From Flagellimonas amoyensis (lineage in GTDB: Bacteria > Bacteroidota > Bacteroidia > Flavobacteriales > Flavobacteriaceae), in contig NZ_QBUK01000001.1 in NCBI RefSeq assembly GCF_003058265.1, positions 248,001 through 312,000 on the forward strand: DNA of 64,000 bases, in the 5' to 3' direction. Within the stretch, counting starts at the first letter, position 1; every line of letters begins with the position of its first letter. The notes under the pieces were generated by a model. It saw only the letters and a list, made by a program, of their open reading frames with translations. It had not been told where the DNA came from and ran no database searches. Below, one piece after another: positions 29,207 through 38,679 of this stretch. The position numbers were made by a program, and so were the translations under genes.

Positions 29207-31260
29207 TCCTTTTTGGACCGGAATCCACAGGAAAGACCACATTGGCCGAACAACTGGCCGAACATTACCGCACCGAATGGGTGCCCGAATATGCCCGCGA
29301 ATACCTTCAGGAAAAGTGGGACAGGGAACAAAAGACCTGTGAGCCCAAGGATCTATTGCCCATTGCCTATGGACAGATGCGCCTGGAAAACCAATTGGCA
29401 ACAACGGCCCATAAGGTCCTGATCTGCGATACCGATCTTTTGGAGACCAAGGTCTATTCCGAAACCTACTATACTGGCACCTGCGATCCCCTTTTGGAGG
29501 AATATGCCCTCAAGAACACCTACGACCTTTATTTGTTGACCTACATCGACACCCCTTGGGTGGCCGACGACCTTCGGGACAAACCGGACGAGCGCGAACG
29601 AATGTTTTCGTATTTCAAGGAATCATTGGAAAAATATGACCGAAATTTTATTACCTTAAGAGGAGATAAGGCAACACGGCTCTCAACGGCCATAAAGTAT
29701 ATTGACAAACTTCTCCAAAACATGATAGAATTAAGTCCGAAAGACTTGGAACAATTGGATTCCAAAGGAATTTCAAAAGAAAAAGTCATCCGTCAGATCA
29801 ACACCTTTGCAGAAGGGATCCCATTTGTGCAACTCACAAAGGCCGCAGTGGTAGGGAACGGGATCTTGAGGTTTTCCGATAAGGAACAGAAAGAGCTTAT
29901 CCAGTATTTTGAAGACCACAGGGGCCATCTGGACCTGTTGAAGTTCGTTCCCGCTTCGGGTGCCGCTTCACGGATGTTCAAGGCCATGTTCAATTTTTTG
30001 GATGCCTACGATCCTTCCAAGGAAAGCCTCTCGGACTATGTGGATAGAACAAAGGACAAGGACGTGCAGGTTTTTGCCGCACAAATGAACAAGTTTCCTT
30101 TCTATGACAAGATTATGGAAAGAATCAAGGGAAAAGCAGGCAGCAAGGATGAAGAAGTCTATCTTTTTGCCAAGGAAATGTTGGTAGAGGAAGGTCTTGA
30201 TTACGGATTTTATCCAAAGGGACTTTTGCCTTTCCACAGCTATGCAACTGGCAGTGCCACCCCTTTTGAGGAACACTTGAAGGAAGCGGCCCTCTATGCG
30301 AAAACGGACGGGAAGGCCCATCTCCATTTTACGGTCTCGGAACAGCATGATGAAATGTTCAAGGCAGAAGAGGCCAAGGTGGCCCCGAAAATCTCGAAAA
30401 GCACCAATACCCAGTTTGAAATTTCATACTCCAACCAGAAACCATCAACGGACACCATTGCGGTGGACATGGAGAACAAACCTTTCAAAAATGGGGATGG
30501 ATCGCTCCTCTTCAGGCCAGGGGGACATGGCGCCCTCATCGAAAACCTGAACGACCAAGATGCAGACATCATCTTCATCAAGAATATTGATAATGTGGTG
30601 ATCGACAAGAATTTGGAGGAAGTGGCCAATAGCAAGAAAATGTTGGCCGGGGCACTCAAAAAGGTCCAGGACAAAGCATTTGCCTATGCAGAACTGTTGG
30701 ACAAGGGAAATGTTTCCGTGGAAAAAGCGGACGAAATAAAGGCGTTTTTAGAGAAGAGCCTCAATGTGCGCATGCCCAACGATTATGATGAATTGGATGT
30801 GAGCCAACAACAAACCGTGCTGAAAAACAGCATAAACAGGCCCATTCGGATATGTGGCATGGTCAAGAATGAAGGGGAACCCGGTGGTGGCCCATTTTGG
30901 ATCCAGGACTCCCAAGGGAACGTTTCACTTCAGATCATAGAATCCGCCCAAATAGACTTGGACAATCCTGAACAAGCAGGAATTCTTAAGAATTCGACCC
31001 ACTTCAATCCTGTGGATCTGGTGTGCGGAGTGCGAAATTATAAAGGGGAAAAGTATGACCTCTTACATTTTGTGGATGAGAAGCAAGGCTTCATCACAGG
31101 CAAGACCATGGAAGGAAAAGAACTCAAGGCCTTGGAATTGCCCGGGCTGTGGAATGGGGGTATGGCATTCTGGAACACCATCTTTGTGGAGGTTCCGTTG
31201 GTGACCTTTAATCCAGTGAAGACCGTGAACGATCTTTTGAAGCCCACACACCAAGCCTAA
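29161..31260 (+). CDS. NadR-like nicotinamide riboside kinase fused to DUF4301
   Basis: One 699-residue frame holding two proteins. Residues 1-187 are a NadR-type kinase: P-loop GPESTGKTTLAEQLA, the WVPEYAREYLQ motif and the CDTDLLETKVYSE strand; it should phosphorylate nicotinamide riboside. Residues 188-699 match DUF4301: PASGAASRM resembles a nucleotidyltransferase glycine loop, and LPFHSY, FRPGGHGAL and KNIDNV recall UDP-sugar pyrophosphorylases. The two are usually separate, neighbouring genes. Here no stop separates them, and the ATG at 29722 (MIELSPKD) may still serve as an internal start for DUF4301. The reading frame is open throughout, so this is a fusion rather than a visible frameshift. 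Confidence 0.82.
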   Translation: MEETLGQEPSNLIKVVLFGPESTGKTTLAEQLAEHYRTEWVPEYAREYLQEKWDREQKTCEPKDLLPIAYGQMRLENQLATTAHKVLICDTDLLETKVYSETYYTGTCDPLLEEYALKNTYDLYLLTYIDTPWVADDLRDKPDERERMFSYFKESLEKYDRNFITLRGDKATRLSTAIKYIDKLLQNMIELSPKDLEQLDSKGISKEKVIRQINTFAEGIPFVQLTKAAVVGNGILRFSDKEQKELIQYFEDHRGHLDLLKFVPASGAASRMFKAMFNFLDAYDPSKESLSDYVDRTKDKDVQVFAAQMNKFPFYDKIMERIKGKAGSKDEEVYLFAKEMLVEEGLDYGFYPKGLLPFHSYATGSATPFEEHLKEAALYAKTDGKAHLHFTVSEQHDEMFKAEEAKVAPKISKSTNTQFEISYSNQKPSTDTIAVDMENKPFKNGDGSLLFRPGGHGALIENLNDQDADIIFIKNIDNVVIDKNLEEVANSKKMLAGALKKVQDKAFAYAELLDKGNVSVEKADEIKAFLEKSLNVRMPNDYDELDVSQQQTVLKNSINRPIRICGMVKNEGEPGGGPFWIQDSQGNVSLQIIESAQIDLDNPEQAGILKNSTHFNPVDLVCGVRNYKGEKYDLLHFVDEKQGFITGKTMEGKELKALELPGLWNGGMAFWNTIFVEVPLVTFNPVKTVNDLLKPTHQA

Positions 31261-31284
31261 ACCACACATAAACAAAACAGTATG

Positions 31285-31316
31285 TCCGCCATCACTTGAG
31301 ATGGCGGATTTTTTTT
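31285..31316 (+). terminator. Intrinsic terminator after the NadR/DUF4301 gene
   Basis: TCCGCCATC and GATGGCGGA form a 9-bp stem with a six-base loop, followed by a run of T. Confidence 0.85.
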
Positions 31317-31486
31317 GCCCATTGGTGTGACCAGTACCGATAAAAGGTGTCAAAAAAGTGTACGACCTATTGGGATGACAATGTCCTTCTCAAGGTAAAG
31401 TAATTCTCGGTCCTTCTGGATTGTAAGGATTTAGGTTGGTTGATTTGGTTAGAGGGCCGTGCATTCTGTACGGCTTTCTTTTAACC
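31317..31486 (+). other. Non-coding stretch with a second terminator-like hairpin
   Basis: I see no supportable gene here. At 31431-31452 is a 22-base GGTT/TTGG-rich segment that agrees in 20 of 22 positions with 32257-32278, which lies just before the terminator of the PepSY-like gene. It is followed in both places by a GGGCCG-starting hairpin; here GGCCGTGC...GTACGGC and a T-rich tail (31455-31482). This looks like the duplicated 3' end of a related, now lost, gene. Confidence 0.45.
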
Positions 31487-31504
31487 TTGGCACGGAAACT
31501 GCAA
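31487..31504 (+). promoter_or_regulatory. Sigma-54 (-24/-12) promoter
   Basis: TTGGCACGGAAACTGCAA has the invariant GG and GC separated by exactly 10 bases and a perfect TGGCACG -24 box; the -12 box is CTGCA against TTGCA. The predicted start lies a few bases before the ATG of the 41-residue frame. A sigma-54 activator gene lies 0.9 kb downstream. Confidence 0.65.
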
Positions 31505-31520
31505 ATGTGAATGAAAAAAG

Positions 31521-31646
31521 ATGTTTTTAAAGATAGTATTGCTTCTCAACTTGGTCTCCCTCGGGATTGCCATGTACATTATATATTCTTATGTGAAGAA
31601 TAAAAAAAAGAACAATGAGCGAAAGAACCAGGACGATGCTATGTAG
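31521..31646 (+). CDS. 41-residue small membrane protein under a sigma-54 promoter
   Basis: The frame encodes a single hydrophobic helix (FLKIVLLLNLVSLGIAMYII) followed by a very basic, polar tail with KNKKKNNERKNQ. I do not recognise a family. The evidence that it is real is its context: a -24/-12 promoter ends 17 bases upstream, and a GC-rich hairpin with a TTCG loop lies 78 bases downstream. Topology by the positive-inside rule would put the tail in the cytoplasm. The neighbours are a PepSY-like exported protein and a sigma-54 two-component system, so a role in envelope stress signalling is possible but only inferred. Confidence 0.5.
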   Translation: MFLKIVLLLNLVSLGIAMYIIYSYVKNKKKNNERKNQDDAM

Positions 31647-31724
31647 ACACTAACCATGTATTGTTCATCTCAGCCAATCTCATTCATAGTCTTTTTCCTT
31701 GGGATTATGATTTTGGCGCAATGG

Positions 31725-31750
31725 AAAGGCTGCTTCGGCGGCCTTTCTTG
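31725..31750 (+). terminator. Hairpin terminator downstream of the small membrane protein
   Basis: AAAGGC-T-GC, TTCG loop, GC-G-GCCTTT forms a stable tetraloop hairpin with one internal mismatch, followed by CTTGTG. The T tract is short, so termination strength is uncertain. Confidence 0.55.
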
Positions 31751-31871
31751 TGTAAAAACTATACAGCTTGTCCCGCCCATTACACAGTTTTACACAGTCC
31801 TTCAAAAATGGCACAAAATATAACTGTTTAATATACAGTGATTTAAGTCAAATTCAAGATTACTTCCAGAA

Positions 31872-31888
31872 TTGGCACTAGTTTTTCA
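31872..31888 (+). promoter_or_regulatory. Sigma-54-like promoter of the PepSY-like gene
   Basis: TTGGCACTAGTTTTTCA has a perfect TGGCAC -24 box; 10 bases after GG the -12 dinucleotide is TC instead of GC. It sits 45 bases before the ATG, about right for this promoter class. One deviation at a key base keeps it tentative. Confidence 0.4.
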
Positions 31889-31932
31889 TATAGATAAGCA
31901 AGTTTAATTAATAACATTTAAAATCTTATACC

Positions 31933-32235
31933 ATGAAAAAATTAATTTTCGCAACCGCACTATCATTTGTAGGACTTACAGCTATGGCCAATGTTGGAAC
32001 CACAGAATTGAATATGGACGAAACAACTGTTGTTGTAGCGCAAGACTTTGAAGAAATCAGTGTTTCTGATGTCCCTGAAGCAGTAACAGCAGCTGTGGCA
32101 AAGGATTACCCCACTGCCAAAGTTGCCAAGGCATATAAAAACGATCAGGACCAATACAAATTGGACCTTACCCTTGAAGATGGTACTTCTGGATCAGTAT
32201 ATGCCGATGCTGAAGGGAACTGGATTGAGATGTAG
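31933..32235 (+). CDS. Exported PepSY-like small protein
   Basis: A 100-residue protein with a signal peptide (MKKLIFATALSFVGLTAMA) and a mature part holding one PepSY-like unit: VPEAVTAAVAKDYPTAKVAKAYKNDQDQYKLDLTLEDGTSGSVY, ending in a short strand with WIEM. Such domains in Bacteroidota are periplasmic or secreted; their ligand is unknown. It has a possible sigma-54 promoter, a strong terminator, and lies next to the response regulator gene. Base composition is more AT-rich than the neighbours, usual for highly expressed small exported proteins. Confidence 0.78.
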   Translation: MKKLIFATALSFVGLTAMANVGTTELNMDETTVVVAQDFEEISVSDVPEAVTAAVAKDYPTAKVAKAYKNDQDQYKLDLTLEDGTSGSVYADAEGNWIEM

Positions 32236-32281
32236 ATCATAGTTTTCGAAACCACGTTAGGTTAGTTGGTTTGGTTAGTGA

Positions 32282-32310
32282 GGGGCCGCGAGAGCGGCCC
32301 CTTCTTTTTT
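32282..32310 (+). terminator. Intrinsic terminator after the PepSY-like gene
   Basis: GGGGCCGC and GCGGCCCC form a perfect 8-bp GC stem with a GAGA tetraloop, followed by TTCTTTTTT. Confidence 0.9.
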
Positions 32311-32376
32311 GTGATAAATTTATAGGTTGCCCAGCATGTGATCAAACGGTGGTATCGTATATTAGACAACTGAGAT

Positions 32377-33717
32377 ATGCCCAAAATCTTGATCATTGAG
32401 GACGACACGGCTTTCTGTCAAATGCTGCAAAAGTTTTTGACAAAGCACGGTTTTGCCGTTTCCACAAGCTACTCCATCAAGGAAGCGGAAGAACAGATCA
32501 GCACTTCCACTTTTGATATTATCTTATCGGATGTACGGCTTCCCAAAGGGAACGGGGTCACGTTGCTCCCCCAGGTCAAGAAGGAATCGCCCACTACCCA
32601 GGTCATCTTGATGACGGGTTATGCAGAGGTAAAGACCGCGGTCAATGCCATGAAAAAAGGGGCTTTCGATTATATCTCAAAACCCTTTACCCCAGAAGAG
32701 ATCCTATCGGTGATCAACAACGCCTTGAATGTGGCACATACCAAGGAAGAAACTCCAAAGAAATCGGCACCCAGCCCCAAAAAGCAGGAGCAGGGCAGCT
32801 TCTTGGTCGGGGAAAGCGAAAGATCAAAAAAACTCCAACAATACATAGATTTGGTGGCGCCCACCAACATGTCGGTCCTGTTGACCGGGGAAAGCGGTAC
32901 GGGCAAGGAAGTCACGGCCAATTCCATCCACAATGCCAGCAAAAGAAAAGGACAGCCCTTTGTGGCGGTAGACTGTGGCGCCATTCCAAAGGAAATTGCC
33001 ACCAGTGAATTTTTTGGCCATGTCAAGGGAAGTTTCACCGGGGCCATAGAGGACAAAAAAGGCCACTTTGAAGCGGCCAATGGCGGCACCCTGTTTTTGG
33101 ATGAGGTGGGCAACCTGTCCTACGAACACCAAGTGCAGCTGCTCCGGGCCATTCAGGAACGAAAGATAAAACGGGTGGGGAGCACCAAAGAGATCCAACT
33201 GGATCTTCGGATCATTGCCGCTACCAACGAAAACCTATTGGAAGCCGTTGAGGAAGGCAGTTTCAGGGAAGACCTTTATCATCGGTTGAACGAATTTTCC
33301 ATCGAGGTTCCTTCATTGCGTGAAAGAAGGGAGGACATTCTTTTGTTCGCCAATTATTTTTTGGATAGGGCCAATGCCGATTTGGAGAAAGAGGTGTTGG
33401 ATTTTTCAGAGGAGGCCAAACAGATTTTGATGGACTATCCATGGCCGGGAAACCTCAGGGAGATGAAGAACATGATCAAGCGGGCCGTCCTGTTTACAGA
33501 GGGCGACACCGTACTGTCCAGTTCATTGGCCGAAGAGGTCGTCAATGGAACCAAGGGCAACAATGCTCCCGTCTTTTCCAAGTCCGAATATGAAAAGGAA
33601 AGGATTTTGGACGCTCTGAAACAGACCAATTTCAACAAGAGCAAGGCAGCCAAATTACTACAGATAACCCGCAAGACCCTTTACAACAAGATCAATCAAT
33701 ATCAACTGGAAGTCTGA
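32377..33717 (+). CDS. Sigma-54-dependent response regulator (NtrC family)
   Basis: A 446-residue transcription activator. Receiver domain with phospho-acceptor Asp52 (IILSDVRLP); AAA+ domain from about residue 145 with Walker A GESGTGKE and the sigma-54 contact loop GSFTGA; Walker B GGTLFLDEVG; C-terminal Fis-type helix-turn-helix (FNKSKAAKLLQITRKTLYNKINQ). The receiver and AAA+ parts are joined by a Lys/Ser/Pro linker. It faces the hybrid histidine kinase gene, with the 3' ends overlapping by 26 bases. Likely targets are the -24/-12 promoters just upstream. Confidence 0.95.
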   Translation: MPKILIIEDDTAFCQMLQKFLTKHGFAVSTSYSIKEAEEQISTSTFDIILSDVRLPKGNGVTLLPQVKKESPTTQVILMTGYAEVKTAVNAMKKGAFDYISKPFTPEEILSVINNALNVAHTKEETPKKSAPSPKKQEQGSFLVGESERSKKLQQYIDLVAPTNMSVLLTGESGTGKEVTANSIHNASKRKGQPFVAVDCGAIPKEIATSEFFGHVKGSFTGAIEDKKGHFEAANGGTLFLDEVGNLSYEHQVQLLRAIQERKIKRVGSTKEIQLDLRIIAATNENLLEAVEEGSFREDLYHRLNEFSIEVPSLRERREDILLFANYFLDRANADLEKEVLDFSEEAKQILMDYPWPGNLREMKNMIKRAVLFTEGDTVLSSSLAEEVVNGTKGNNAPVFSKSEYEKERILDALKQTNFNKSKAAKLLQITRKTLYNKINQYQLEV

Positions 33718-36142
33718 TCAGATAATCCTTGATGGCAGCATTCAGGTGGTGGACCACTTTTTGAAGTTGTGTCAATGTCCCGAATACTCTTTTCGCTTTC
33801 GCATCATCGGAAAGATGTTCCAGTTCTTCCAGCAAAGGGATGGCCTTATGTACCTCCAATTGCCTGAACATGGGCAACATTTTGTGTGAAATGGCACGGA
33901 TTTCCGAAAAATTAGTACTCCCAACATGTGAAAAGAGCAGTTCCATGTTTTTTTCCGTGTTTTCCAAAAAGACTTCCAGGACTTCCAGCACGGCCTGCGG
34001 GCTGTCCAGAAATGGGGCTATATTATTGACGCTGAAATGTGTCGATTGCGAACCGGGAACGGAAGTGGTCGCTGCGCCTGTCCCATTGATTGAATGGCCT
34101 ACCTTGCCCAAAATGTCCAGGAAGGAGGTATTGGAAAATGGCTTTTGCAGCACATCTGTAAAGCCTGCCCCGGTGTAGATGGACTTGTCCGTGATTTGTT
34201 GCCCCGTCATCGCGATCACCGGATTTTCATAGCCCAACTCCCGCAGTTTTTTCAGGACGGAAAAACCATCGATTCCGGGCATCTGTATATCGGTAAGCAC
34301 AACATCACATGAAATGTTCTCCACTTCTTCAATTTCCTTGAAATTGGTATAGGTCTTTATGTCAATTGCATGGACCTGACAAATGTCCTCCAAGAGTTTC
34401 AGCATATTGGCATCATCATCGATTGCGCATAGGGTAAGGGGTCCTTCAAGAGTTTTTTCATGTGGGAGGTTCTCCTCAATGGGCATTTCGCCCAACGCTA
34501 CAGGAATCCGGATGGTAAACGTACTTCCTTCGTTCTCATGGCTTTCCAAATATATTGTTCCGTTGAGGAGTTCGGTCAGCTTTTTTGAAATGGTAAGCCC
34601 CAGTCCATAGCCACCATATTTTTTTTCGGTGGAATCAGTGGCTTGGGCAAATTCTTGGAATATCAACTCTTGTTTTTCAGCAGGTATGCCGATTCCCGTA
34701 TCCTTTACCCTGATCCTGACCCACTGTTTATCCCCTTTTTCCTCCAAGAGCGCACTTATTTTCACATGGCCTTTTTGGGTGAATTTAAAAGCATTGCCCA
34801 CAAGGTTGGTCAATATCTGCCGTAGACGGAACGGGTCGCTCACAATCGGTTTTTCCAGATTTTCATCAATCTCCAATTGGAGTTCCACCTCCTTTTTGGA
34901 ATTCACTTCCCTAAAATGCAATGAAGTTTCCTGGATAAGGTTGGAAAGGATGAAAGGCACCCGTTCAAGGTTCACTCTTCCCGCTTCCAATTTTGAATAG
35001 TCCAGAAGATCGTTCACCAAGTTTTCCACATAACCTGATGCGGACCTCACATTTTTCAGATAGTTCAGTTGTTTGCTGTTCAATCCGCTGTGCTCCATCA
35101 ATTCGGAATATCCGCTGATGGTGTTCAAGGGTGTCCTCAGGTCGTGGCTCACGGTAGAGATCAATTGTTCCCTGCTCTTCAACAGGAATTCAGAATATTT
35201 TTTCTCTTTTTCCAGTTGCTCCCGATAGCGTTGGACTTTCCAAAAGTCCCTGGAAATCAAAAAAGTAAAGAAAATAACGATGATCAGTCCCAATAAAATG
35301 GCGCCTCCGGCCAATCGGGTGGTCCTTTCCAATGCCTGTTCCTGGTTCAGGCTGTCGAAATAGGCATTTTGGGCCATTTCTTCCTCAAAGCCAGCGATAA
35401 TGTTCCGTATTTTTTGGGAAAGCTCAAGATCGGTCCTATAAATCTGTAGCTCTTTTTGGATCATGGAACGCTCAATGGAAGCTGTTTCCATTTTGGCCCT
35501 GTTCAATATGGACTTGGACAATTGGAGGATGGAGTCGATGTTGTTCGCATCAACATCCCCCTTGGAACTGGGAATGTTTTTATTGAGAAGGGCCACATAT
35601 TCCCGAATGGAATTTTGTGTGGATGCAGGCAACTGTTTAAAGTTGGGCGCAAAAGTCTCTGGGGTGATCCGCCCCATGCCCACTTCCATTTTATGGAAAG
35701 CGTCCAGCACGGAATCGTAGGAGGTCCTGTTTTCGTTCTGTACCCTCAACTTGCGTAGCTCGGCACTGTTGAATACCTTTTGTTTCAATAGCTCTTGCAC
35801 ACTGTCCAATTGAGAAATAGGGGCATCTGGATCCGAATTGGAAAGCGGTTTGAGGGAGTCTATGATGGTATTGATGGAATCCACTTTCTGCGCATAGGCC
35901 TGAAGGTCGTCCGGTTTTTTGGTCTGGAGCGCCAACTTGGAAAGGTTTTCGGCTTCGTACAGATCAGTGAGCAGTCTATTGGTTTTCAGTAATTTGGCAT
36001 TATCATCCTCTTTGCTCTTGGCAGAGACATAGGTCTTGAACTCACTGTAGATAAAAAAGGAAGCAAGCACGGCCAATACCCCAAGGACCACATAACTGGA
36101 GATGATCTTGAACGTAAACCTTTTTTTGGATTTAGGGTGCAT
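33692..36142 (-). CDS. Hybrid histidine kinase with receiver and Hpt domains
   Basis: An 816-residue sensor. Two membrane segments (about residues 12-30 and 275-297) flank a periplasmic helical region. HisKA follows with HDLRTPLNTISGY, then HATPase_c (GNAFKFTQKG, KYGGYGLGLTI), a receiver domain with Asp in VVLTDIQMPG, and a C-terminal Hpt domain with His in AISHKMLPMFRQ. The built-in phosphorelay His-Asp-His would hand phosphate to an external receiver; the adjacent convergent sigma-54 regulator is the obvious candidate. The signal sensed is unknown. Confidence 0.93.
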   Translation of the reverse strand: MHPKSKKRFTFKIISSYVVLGVLAVLASFFIYSEFKTYVSAKSKEDDNAKLLKTNRLLTDLYEAENLSKLALQTKKPDDLQAYAQKVDSINTIIDSLKPLSNSDPDAPISQLDSVQELLKQKVFNSAELRKLRVQNENRTSYDSVLDAFHKMEVGMGRITPETFAPNFKQLPASTQNSIREYVALLNKNIPSSKGDVDANNIDSILQLSKSILNRAKMETASIERSMIQKELQIYRTDLELSQKIRNIIAGFEEEMAQNAYFDSLNQEQALERTTRLAGGAILLGLIIVIFFTFLISRDFWKVQRYREQLEKEKKYSEFLLKSREQLISTVSHDLRTPLNTISGYSELMEHSGLNSKQLNYLKNVRSASGYVENLVNDLLDYSKLEAGRVNLERVPFILSNLIQETSLHFREVNSKKEVELQLEIDENLEKPIVSDPFRLRQILTNLVGNAFKFTQKGHVKISALLEEKGDKQWVRIRVKDTGIGIPAEKQELIFQEFAQATDSTEKKYGGYGLGLTISKKLTELLNGTIYLESHENEGSTFTIRIPVALGEMPIEENLPHEKTLEGPLTLCAIDDDANMLKLLEDICQVHAIDIKTYTNFKEIEEVENISCDVVLTDIQMPGIDGFSVLKKLRELGYENPVIAMTGQQITDKSIYTGAGFTDVLQKPFSNTSFLDILGKVGHSINGTGAATTSVPGSQSTHFSVNNIAPFLDSPQAVLEVLEVFLENTEKNMELLFSHVGSTNFSEIRAISHKMLPMFRQLEVHKAIPLLEELEHLSDDAKAKRVFGTLTQLQKVVHHLNAAIKDYLIRLPVDID

Positions 36143-36233
36143 ACCCTTATATACGCAGGGGCATTGGGGTCCCGGTTGTTAGTAAAAGTTAAATTTTCTC
36201 GATTTATTTTTATGAAAAGTGGCCTCGGCACAG

Positions 36234-36241
36234 TACATTTG
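36234..36241 (+). promoter_or_regulatory. Putative -7 promoter element of the TPP riboswitch leader
   Basis: TACATTTG matches TAnnTTTG exactly and would start transcription just before the riboswitch aptamer. Confidence 0.55.
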
Positions 36242-36249
36242 CCCCATCT

Positions 36250-36330
36250 CAAAGGGGTGCTTTTTTCACGAAAGGCTGAGATTATACCCAATGAACCTGG
36301 GCGGGTAATGCCGCCAAGGGATTGCGCTAG
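36250..36330 (+). promoter_or_regulatory. TPP (thiamin) riboswitch
   Basis: The aptamer is recognised from GGGGTGC, the central CTGAGATTATACCC segment, GAACCTG, GGGTAATGCCGCC and AAGGGA in the right order and spacing. It should bind thiamin pyrophosphate and reduce expression of the downstream receptor when thiamin is plentiful. I see no strong terminator between aptamer and gene; a hairpin over the start codon suggests translational control. Confidence 0.92.
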
Positions 36331-36400
36331 GCGCATCTTGGAATTTCTATGTTTCTTTTGAAACAAAAATCATTTATCAACAAGAATAATGACCCCTTTT

Positions 36401-36422
36401 ATTCGTAACATTTTTTACGAAT
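36401..36422 (+). promoter_or_regulatory. Start-codon hairpin behind the TPP riboswitch
   Basis: ATTCGTAA and TTACGAAT form a perfect 8-bp stem with a six-base loop; its 3' strand covers the first two bases of the ATG at 36421. It could be the sequestering stem of the riboswitch's expression platform. Confidence 0.5.
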
Positions 36423-38679
36423 GAAACTGCTTTATTCAAACAGTAAGCCCATGACCGCTGGGTTGAAATGCGGTCCAACGCGACCGTCAAAGAACTACGG
36501 GAGCAACATCAAAACCTTATTTGCAACATTGGCCCTTTCCGGACTGGCGCTTAGCATGAATGCCCAAGAGGTGCAGACCGATTCCTTGGAAGGAAAAAAG
36601 GTCGTGCTGGATGAGGTCTTGGTACAGGCCATTAGGGTGACCAAGGAATTTCCCATCACTTTTACCAATTTGGACCAGGAGGAAATGGCCTCCAGGAACT
36701 TGGGGCAGGATGTGCCCATTCTGATGAACTTTATGCCTGCGGTAGTGACCACTTCCGATGCAGGTGCCGGAGTGGGATACACCAGCATTCGCGTTCGGGG
36801 TAGTGATGCCACGCGGGTAAACGTGACCATCAATGGTGTGCCCTACAACGATGCGGAATCGCAGGGTACATTTTGGGTGAACATGCCCGATTTTGCCTCT
36901 TCCACCCAAAGCCTTCAATTGCAACGAGGGGTGGGAACCTCGACCAATGGGGCCGGTGCTTTCGGGGCAAGCCTCAACGTGCTTACCGATGCGTTTTCCG
37001 AGGAAGCTTATGCCAAGGTCTCATCATCCGTGGGGAGCTTCAACACGCTACGGAACAATGTGAAGTTCAGCACCGGCATCTTGAACGATCATTTTGAATT
37101 TTCGGGCAGGTTGTCCCGCATCACTTCCGATGGTTATGTGGACAGAGCCGCTTCTGAACTGGATGCCTATTTCCTGCAAGGGGTCTATAAGGACGAAAAC
37201 ACCCTTATAAAGGCCCTGCTCTTTGGGGGGCACGAGATTACTTATCAAGCTTGGGACGGGGTCACCGCACAGCAGTTGGAAGAAGACCGAACCTTCAATC
37301 CTGTGGGTGAGTACACCGATGCCAATGGACAGACCCGGTTCCATGACAATGAAGAGGACAATTACAAGCAAGATCATTTTCAACTGCACTGGAGCGAGAC
37401 CTTGAGTCCTGAGTGGAGCACCAATCTGGCCTTCCACTATACACGTGGGCGAGGTTTTTTTGAACAGTACCGCGATGAGGACGATTTTGCCGATTATGGA
37501 TTGGAACCCATTACTGTGGACGGTGAAGAGGTGAACATCACAGATTTGATCCGTAGGCGTTGGCTGGAAAATGATTTTTACGGGACCGTCTTCTCGGCCA
37601 CGTACAAGAAGAACGACCTCCGGTTGATTTTTGGAGGAGGATACAACGAGTACAAGGGGGATCATTTCGGTGAGATCATTTGGGCACGCTTTGCCAGCAA
37701 CAGCGATATTCGGGACCGATATTATGACGATAACTCCACCAAGACCGATCTTAATGTCTATGCCAAGGCCAACTATCAGCTCAATAGCAAATGGTCCATT
37801 TTTGGCGATGTGCAATACCGAGGGGTTGGCTATGAGGCCAATGGGAACGATACCGGACTGGTCGATGATACCTTTGACTTTTTCAATCCCAAGGCCGGTA
37901 TCACTTTTGACATGGACCGGAACAATAATTTCTATCTTTCCTATGCTAGGGCCAGCAGGGAGCCCAACCGTAACGATTATGAAAGTGGAAGCCCAAAACC
38001 TGAGCATCTGAACGATTTTGAGTTGGGATGGCGCTACGTTTCCCCCAATTTCCAATGGAACACCAACGTGTATTACATGAGGTACAAGGACCAATTGGTG
38101 CTTACCGGGGAGCTCAACGATGTAGGAGCGCCCTTGAGGTCCAATGTAGGGGACAGTTATCGCTTGGGTCTGGAAATGGATGCCAACATCAAACTGGGAC
38201 AAAAGTTCATGCTTAGGCCAAACATTGCCCTTAGCGACAACCGAAACCTTGATTTTTATTTTCAGCGGGACGGGGAACTACAGGACTTGGGAAATACCAA
38301 CATCGCCTATTCCCCCAAGATCGTGGCAGGTAATATTTTGGCTTTTCAGCCTAATCAAAACCTGCAATTGTCCTTGTTGTCCAAATTTGTGGGCAAGCAA
38401 TATATGGGCAATATTGATTCGGAAAATTCCACTTTGGACAGTTATACCCAGACCGATTTCAATGTGCAATATGTCATCAAGGCCAACTCCTTTTTTAAGA
38501 GCATAGTCCTGTCCGGTCTGGTGAACAACATTTTCGATGCCGATATTGTTTCCAACGGATATTTTTACACCTACGATGATGATTTTTCCAACCCAGGAAC
38601 CATCACCACCATCGAGGAAGCAAGGTATTATCCCCAGGCAGGAATCAACTTTTTGTTGGGGGCCACCATTGTTTTTTAA
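36421..38679 (+). CDS. TonB-dependent receptor, probable thiamin/thiamin-precursor uptake
   Basis: A 752-residue outer-membrane receptor with a plug domain (VLVQAIRVTKEFPITFTNL through FGASLNVLTDAF) and a beta-barrel ending in a phenylalanine strand (GINFLLGATIVF). It lacks the carboxypeptidase-like N-terminal domain of the phytase-linked receptor. Control by a TPP riboswitch points to thiamin or a precursor as ligand, as for the OMP class described in Bacteroidetes. The signal peptide hydrophobic core (TLFATLALSGLALSMNAQ) begins only near residue 32, giving an unusually long basic n-region; a later start (ATG at 36451) is possible but the ATG used here fits the leader hairpin. Confidence 0.88.
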   Translation: MKLLYSNSKPMTAGLKCGPTRPSKNYGSNIKTLFATLALSGLALSMNAQEVQTDSLEGKKVVLDEVLVQAIRVTKEFPITFTNLDQEEMASRNLGQDVPILMNFMPAVVTTSDAGAGVGYTSIRVRGSDATRVNVTINGVPYNDAESQGTFWVNMPDFASSTQSLQLQRGVGTSTNGAGAFGASLNVLTDAFSEEAYAKVSSSVGSFNTLRNNVKFSTGILNDHFEFSGRLSRITSDGYVDRAASELDAYFLQGVYKDENTLIKALLFGGHEITYQAWDGVTAQQLEEDRTFNPVGEYTDANGQTRFHDNEEDNYKQDHFQLHWSETLSPEWSTNLAFHYTRGRGFFEQYRDEDDFADYGLEPITVDGEEVNITDLIRRRWLENDFYGTVFSATYKKNDLRLIFGGGYNEYKGDHFGEIIWARFASNSDIRDRYYDDNSTKTDLNVYAKANYQLNSKWSIFGDVQYRGVGYEANGNDTGLVDDTFDFFNPKAGITFDMDRNNNFYLSYARASREPNRNDYESGSPKPEHLNDFELGWRYVSPNFQWNTNVYYMRYKDQLVLTGELNDVGAPLRSNVGDSYRLGLEMDANIKLGQKFMLRPNIALSDNRNLDFYFQRDGELQDLGNTNIAYSPKIVAGNILAFQPNQNLQLSLLSKFVGKQYMGNIDSENSTLDSYTQTDFNVQYVIKANSFFKSIVLSGLVNNIFDADIVSNGYFYTYDDDFSNPGTITTIEEARYYPQAGINFLLGATIVF

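Follow-up and report, generated by a model that had tools for sequence, protein, structure and literature searches.

A probable sigma-54-dependent envelope circuit with PepSY-like secreted output in Flagellimonas amoyensis and other Flavobacteriaceae

In enterobacteria, ZraSR-ZraP and CpxAR-CpxP are two-component envelope responses with a small periplasmic product, and ZraR is a sigma-54 activator. Here we describe a locus of Flagellimonas amoyensis that appears to work like ZraSR-ZraP and that very probably belongs to an envelope circuit conserved in Flavobacteriaceae and dependent on sigma-54, with one or more PepSY-like secreted proteins as its putative output. The locus lies in a stretch of 64,000 nucleotides (the window; contig NZ_QBUK01000001.1, positions 248,001 to 312,000, from which the coordinates below are counted), and four genes surround the finding, encoding a one-helix protein, a PepSY-like protein, an activator and a convergent hybrid kinase. 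The product is PepSY-like and is not ZraP or CpxP, and the kinase is hybrid and not simple; by product and kinase type the circuit is outside the ZraSR-ZraP family.

The SM4 regulon of Flavobacterium psychrophilum, which belongs to the same bacterial family, resembles the circuit in its -24/-12 promoters and in its envelope and protein quality-control genes, including Skp (PMC9723704). That system has three activator-domain proteins, and one SM4 promoter stands before a putative regulatory RNA. However, as described there, the SM4 regulon differs from the window circuit, which includes a hybrid kinase of its own and, in related genomes, PepSY genes in tandem; the word PepSY is absent from the main text of the paper, and the selection in its Table 2 names no PepSY-like gene. 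A distant parallel, drawn from descriptions, is BT0922-BT0923 of Bacteroides thetaiotaomicron, tandem PepSY-like genes adjoining a PAS-domain sensor kinase, the expression of which rises 2-5-fold under iron depletion (PMC10434189). This makes iron limitation one candidate signal. The description of BT0922-BT0923 mentions no sigma-54 activator or promoter. Among the open-licence literature matches listed, none dealt with this locus or with a sigma-54 regulon involving a PepSY-like gene, which is a weak statement. The circuit is set apart from the known kind by its TTTTC promoter class, its tandem PepSY output and a neighbouring RNA-like unit.

The features that make up the circuit are the following.

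31749 to 31765, plus strand: activator-type half-sites in inverted arrangement, TGTGTA-N5-TATACA (alignment, pattern search)
31780 to 31796, plus strand: activator-type half-sites in direct arrangement, TTACACAGTTTTACACA (alignment, pattern search)
31872 to 31888, plus strand: sigma-54-type promoter TTGGCAC-TAGT-TTTTCA (TTGGCACTAGTTTTTCA, GG-N10-TC; scans and alignment)
31933 to 32235, plus strand: PepSY-like small protein of 100 amino acids with an N-terminus that looks like a signal peptide by eye (PF11396, profile matches)
32257 to 32310, plus strand: 3' untranslated region (3'UTR) of the PepSY gene, with copy 2 of a GU-rich element (32257-32278) and a terminator hairpin (sequence comparison)
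32358 to 32365, plus strand: putative housekeeping-type -7-like element before the activator gene, TATATTAG (30 of 40 genus intergenic sequences)
32377 to 33717, plus strand: sigma-54 activator with receiver, AAA+ domain carrying GSFTGA, and Fis-type helix-turn-helix (HTH) domain (domain search)
33692 to 36142, minus strand: hybrid histidine kinase with helical membrane sensor part, HisKA, HATPase, receiver and Hpt-like domains (domain search, model)

What was observed directly is the set of genes and their synteny, together with the promoter, the half-sites and the conservation of all of these. An earlier note on this DNA had proposed two -24/-12 promoters, at 31487-31504 and at 31872-31888, and both coordinates and strings were confirmed. 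When the 64-kb window was searched for TGGCACN5TTGCA with at most one mismatch, 2 matches were found against 1.71 expected in shuffles; by sequence alone both sites are thus at chance level, and conservation had to decide. We examined a genus set of 60 genomes, 41 of which had an activator match at E ≤ 1e-100. Forty of these activators are close orthologues (66-100% identity, the window included) and the remaining one is a 42% relative; the genus locus set therefore comprises 40 loci (39 fetched stretches and the window), i.e. every close orthologue. All 40 of these loci have GG-N10-TC at the PepSY promoter, its end lying 36-46 bp upstream of the PepSY ATG, and the site forms a conserved block in the alignment. 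The scan used here scored TTGC higher and is an unbiased check of the -12 state; nevertheless, the -12 dinucleotide was TC in all loci and never GC. The formal -24 GG/-12 GC pattern is thus present at 31872 in its GG-N10 part and replaced by TC in its -12 part, and what had looked like a blemish to the earlier note is the conserved state.

A second, named set consisted of the window and the best 80 of 549 activator-matched loci (n = 81), its genus parts overlapping the 40-locus set. The scans of this set and of the skp loci described below gave TTTC the top score and accepted only strings with GG and A at -24, so that the share of GG in them is given by construction. An acceptable site was found for 126 of the 148 PepSY copies, while 16 had only another best string and 6 had none. 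All 28 genus copies carried TC at -12, and among the 78 copies adjoining the activator we counted TC in 70, GC in 1, GT in 1 and no acceptable site in 6. In the 140 bp upstream of the 126 promoters, TACACA was observed 205 times against 6.2 expected, mostly 70-120 bp above the -24 element, and a direct repeat of TACACA-type half-sites preceded 64 of the 126 promoters against 0.02 expected; the shuffles behind these expectations keep base composition only, and the promoters, drawn from related genomes, are not independent. Activator-type sites about 80-150 bp upstream are present for the 31872 promoter.

The same -12 form recurs elsewhere in the 4.1 Mb genome, which has a single sigma-54 gene; the RpoN box of its product is identical to that of solved sigma-54 proteins. 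The exact pattern TGGCAYN5TTKC occurred 72 times in the genome against 42 times for the reversed pattern. Eight of the 72 sites fall outside open reading frames (ORFs) of at least 100 codons, six of them with TC and two with GC, and one is the PepSY site. Another of the eight, the TC-type site TTGGCACGATATTTTCT, stands 23 bp before an OmpH/Skp-family gene. Of 30 genus loci examined for this site one was masked, and the 29 readable ones all retain it. In F. psychrophilum, Skp, groES and dnaK all appear under the mapped sigma-54 motif SM4 (PMC9723704). In the genome studied here groES and dnaK have a TGGCAT-type -24 element with GC (groES) or GA (dnaK) at -12. With TC at the PepSY and skp genes, several -12 forms, TC among them, therefore seem to be in use, and the 31872 site likely works as a sigma-54 promoter of a lineage variant also present at skp. 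This suggests that some Flavobacteriaceae sigma-54 promoters may have TTTTC at -12, and searches tuned to TTGC would score such promoters down. A 2025 survey of sigma-54 regulons gives the consensus TGGCAC-N5-7-TTGCT and describes its own method as limited for deviating promoters (PMC12316311).

Other sites and genes of this kind were encountered in the same searches. A canonical intergenic site, TTGGCACGCTGATTGC (C21:18230, L222:3231), lies 53 bp before a gene for a secreted-looking protein of 394 amino acids with no Pfam match at E ≤ 0.01. TTTTC-type sites at C1:451165 and C18:93127 (L230, L267) lie 101 bp before a secreted-looking ORF of 466 amino acids and 25 bp before an ORF of 200 amino acids, respectively. 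A second sigma-54 activator gene is located about 3 kb from groES (L218; C1:474000-485000), and the locus tags of a sigma-54 regulator and groES are likewise close in F. psychrophilum (PMC9723704).

The order of PepSY gene, activator gene and convergent kinase gene was found in 39 of 39 fetched genus loci (in two the kinase ends at the contig edge) and in 19 of 20 family loci, the latter being those fetched as long stretches from the 43 other PepSY-bearing genomes in a family set of 149. In the 81-locus set the kinase was convergent in 79 loci and a PepSY gene lay upstream of the activator in 78; in two of the three loci lacking it the activator begins less than 400 bases from the start of the stretch. 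The number of PepSY copies per locus was one in 36, two in 22, three in 14, four in 4, five in 2 and none in 3, and many of the tandem copies (1-5) carry their own promoter. Judged by the activator gene, the nearest named relatives are Flagellimonas hadalis (97%) and Allomuricauda taeanensis (96%), among the best 80 of 549 matches. One family locus (L079) has a PepSY-like gene and no activator within its 12-kb stretch.

The gene calls were confirmed. The two small genes downstream of the sites encode the 41-amino-acid one-helix protein and the 100-amino-acid secreted-looking PepSY-like protein. The latter reached 21.3 bits against PF11396, the curated cut-off being 28.3, and 44 of 52 orthologues and paralogues scanned matched this family at E ≤ 0.01 (best 3.8e-6); the PepSY alignment contained 52 proteins (P0002 and 51 of 147). 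Profile searches matched the PF11396 relatives 3due and 3db7, solved putative periplasmic proteins that are likewise small, secreted and PepSY-like. The NtrC-type activator with GSFTGA was also confirmed: REC, AAA+ and Fis-type HTH domains follow one another as in regulators of the NtrC/AtoC/ZraR type, and the Sigma54_activat domain, AAA+ lid, Walker A motif, GxFTGA loop, HTH_8 and a receiver with its Asp are all present. The loop is commonly GAFTGA, as in the regulators of that type, whereas GSFTGA was found in 81 of 81 activators, including that of the window. Against NCBIfam the activator scored under the curated cut-off of every model among the best 25 of 130.

The convergent hybrid kinase is present as described, on the minus strand and overlapping the end of the activator gene by 26 bp, and its HisKA, HATPase_c and receiver domains were clear in the domain search. 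The earlier note had it ending in an Hpt domain. In the model the C-terminus consists of a receiver and four helices (mean predicted local distance difference test score, pLDDT, 89), and H753, within an H-x-M-L-P-M-F-R-Q stretch, is invariant in the 40 kinases aligned out of 78. Pfam Hpt was matched at E ≤ 1 by 24 of 40 family members (best 1.5e-5), the window kinase itself giving no such match, and the 50 Foldseek matches listed for the C-terminus were receiver-domain proteins throughout. The invariant His and the four helices favour an Hpt domain at this end, which is plausible. We also tried to name the sensor domain and rejected the attempt: the all-helical model had a mean pLDDT of 70 and its best fold match an E value of 0.15, the McpS and TorS sensors being among the weak matches.

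Taken together, these domains and sites point to the following course of events. The membrane kinase would sense an envelope signal through its helical extracytoplasmic domain, and phosphate would pass from the kinase receiver over the Hpt-like domain to the receiver of the activator. The activator, as position and conservation suggest, would bind the TACACA/TGTRTA half-sites at 31749-31796, and its GSFTGA loop would serve to open sigma-54 RNA polymerase at 31872-31888, where the -12 element is TTTTC as at skp. The PepSY-like protein would be the output, its transcript ending at the terminator near 32310. We infer for this protein a role in envelope protein quality control and homeostasis, or in feedback, homeostasis being likely. 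Such a compact sensor-to-output circuit of Flavobacteriaceae, with a defined promoter and a candidate activator site, is directly testable.

Several observations weigh against this interpretation. The TC at -12 differs from the TTGC consensus, and the 98 non-genus sites, read in the N10 register, showed TC in 72, CT in 10, CC in 10, GT in 4, CG in 1 and GC in 1. No acceptable site was found for 22 of the 148 PepSY copies. The circuit is also patchily distributed: 20 of the 60 genus genomes have no close activator orthologue, and a PepSY match at E ≤ 0.001 was obtained in 44 of the 149 family genomes and in none of the other 105. Among six other activator regions of the same genome, four contained no such site outside long ORFs, one contained two weak sites and one the groES site.

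Three other explanations were considered. According to the first, the main targets of the activator are other genes, the PepSY gene being one member of a broad regulon. A half-site pair with one mismatch at C19:113041 would suit a broad regulon. However, the sole exact copy of TTACACA-N3-TTACACA in the genome is at this locus, and with up to two mismatches the repeat was unenriched (16 matches against 27 for the reversed pattern). We therefore rejected a broad TTACACA regulon, and regard it as unlikely that the activator chiefly serves other genes.

The second explanation, that of the earlier note, takes both -24/-12 sites for sigma-54 promoters, which would place the PepSY gene and the small membrane gene in one regulon of two genes that acts back on the kinase. 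It involves the following features.

31487 to 31504, plus strand: TTGGCACGGAAACTGCAA, GG-N10-GC, probably no conserved functional promoter (species comparison)
31521 to 31646, plus strand: 41-amino-acid one-helix membrane protein (ORF and hydrophobicity)
31724 to 31749, plus strand: hairpin resembling a terminator, situated after the small membrane gene and before the PepSY promoter (alignment)

The canonical GG-N10-GC pattern is exact at 31487. The three nearest species have TTGGTACGGAAACTGTAA, TTGGTATGGAAACTGCAA and TTGGCATGGAAACTGTAA there, so that all four loosely retain GG[CT]A[CT] and ACTG[CT], and the changes fall on pyrimidine positions at which the PepSY -24 element is variable as well. 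However, in these four species the flanks are as conserved as the site itself, and nothing equivalent stands there in the other genus loci; several of these do contain strings scoring at most 9 of 11, but at other positions, mostly within the small ORF. None of TACACA, TGTGTA, TATACA and TGTATA was found in the 160 bp upstream of 31487, a leader of less than 10 nucleotides would remain, and the match itself is at chance level. The 31487 site was therefore rejected as a conserved promoter. Conservation ranks the two sites in reverse of the order in which they had been put forward: only that at 31872 passed the comparison of related genomes that the earlier note had called for.

The small membrane gene points the same way. 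When 28 genus loci were screened with a rule combining pattern and hydrophobicity, 25 had a small hydrophobic ORF at the 31521-type position, and in 9 of the 28 an element GTGACC-N14-GTGTC starts 45-47 bp before its ATG; the small ORFs of those nine loci are equivalent by position, their sequence likeness by tblastn being weak or nil. The gene seems to go with this element rather than with the sigma-54 regulon, which it adjoins without clearly being part of it. A two-gene regulon is accordingly quite improbable to us, and the local circuit first proposed keeps its kinase, its activator and one secreted PepSY protein and loses the small membrane gene.

Least credible of the three is the view that TGGCAY-N5-TTTTC is an operator, or the site of another sigma factor, standing by chance before the PepSY and skp genes: none of the 40 genus copies has GC at -12, while groES and dnaK of the same genome have GC and GA there, but the GG/TC spacing is fixed about 36-60 bp before the ATG, a GSFTGA activator adjoins, activator-type half-sites stand at the usual distance, and a mapped SM4 promoter is present at Skp of F. 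psychrophilum (PMC9723704).

Two observations concern the surroundings of the small membrane gene. The stretch 31631-31669, roughly GGATGATGCTATGYAAACACTAACCATG, is conserved at and after the end of this gene; it is similar even where the ORF stops earlier (L122, L152) and may therefore be a DNA or RNA element. In L144, L146 and L152 a second small membrane ORF seems, by eye, to come after the first GTGACC-N14-GTGTC element.

Upstream of the small membrane gene lies a unit that resembles a small RNA gene.

31327 to 31351, plus strand: GTGACC-N14-GTGTC element, resembling an extracytoplasmic-function (ECF) sigma promoter or a direct-repeat operator (pattern search)
31358 to 31484, plus strand: candidate non-coding RNA unit with predicted transcript ends: a variable 5' part, in most cases a hairpin, then the GU-rich stretch and the terminator
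31431 to 31452, plus strand: GU-rich element copy 1, TTAGGTTGGTTGATTTGGTTAG (pattern search)

The exact GTGACC-N14-GTGTC element occurs twice in the genome, in the window and at C1:448038. Within 3.8 kb upstream of the activator 31 matches were found in 26 of the 81 loci (25 of 28 genus loci and 1 of 53 others); the other 739 kb of those loci, searched on the same strand, and the reverse strand of the upstream regions gave none. A genome-wide regulon of this element was rejected, one mismatch giving 29 matches against 37 for the reversed control. The single element of the window precedes the 31358-31484 unit, which ends in the GU-rich stretch and a strong terminator, and 31 distinct units, picked out by a search pattern in which both the element and the GU stretch were obligatory, showed the same order of parts. 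In the terminator stem both sides have changed at 6 of 10 pairs, and the consensus energy was -16.6 compared with a mean of -0.2 for shuffled columns. RNAalifold recovered the terminator stem only, the middle hairpin coming from single-sequence folds.

With up to three mismatches the GU-rich element has two copies in the genome, both at this locus, and by a loose pattern the stretch was present in 57 of 78 last-copy PepSY 3'UTRs of the 81-locus set. A candidate RNA pair with one common seed is thereby indicated. It is conceivable, if rather doubtful, that protein and RNA together make this locus a mixed stress hub, in which the GTGACC element would drive a small RNA (about 31358-31484) with a GU-rich single-stranded seed common to the 3'UTR of the sigma-54-driven PepSY gene, so that two envelope signals would converge on one RNA regulon and the TTTTC promoter class would have activation properties of its own. 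In some relatives, however, a comparable 3'UTR follows an upstream copy of the PepSY gene, and the upstream RNA-like unit may instead be the remnant of a PepSY gene that was lost.

Neither the RNA unit nor the PepSY 3'UTR could be assigned to an Rfam family, the sole match at E ≤ 1 in 30500-36500 being a thiamine pyrophosphate (TPP) riboswitch at 36243-36338 on the plus strand. This match, with 52.7 bits, falls slightly short of the 54.3 cut-off and lies before a receptor-like ORF at 36421, which would accordingly be a thiamine-related gene.

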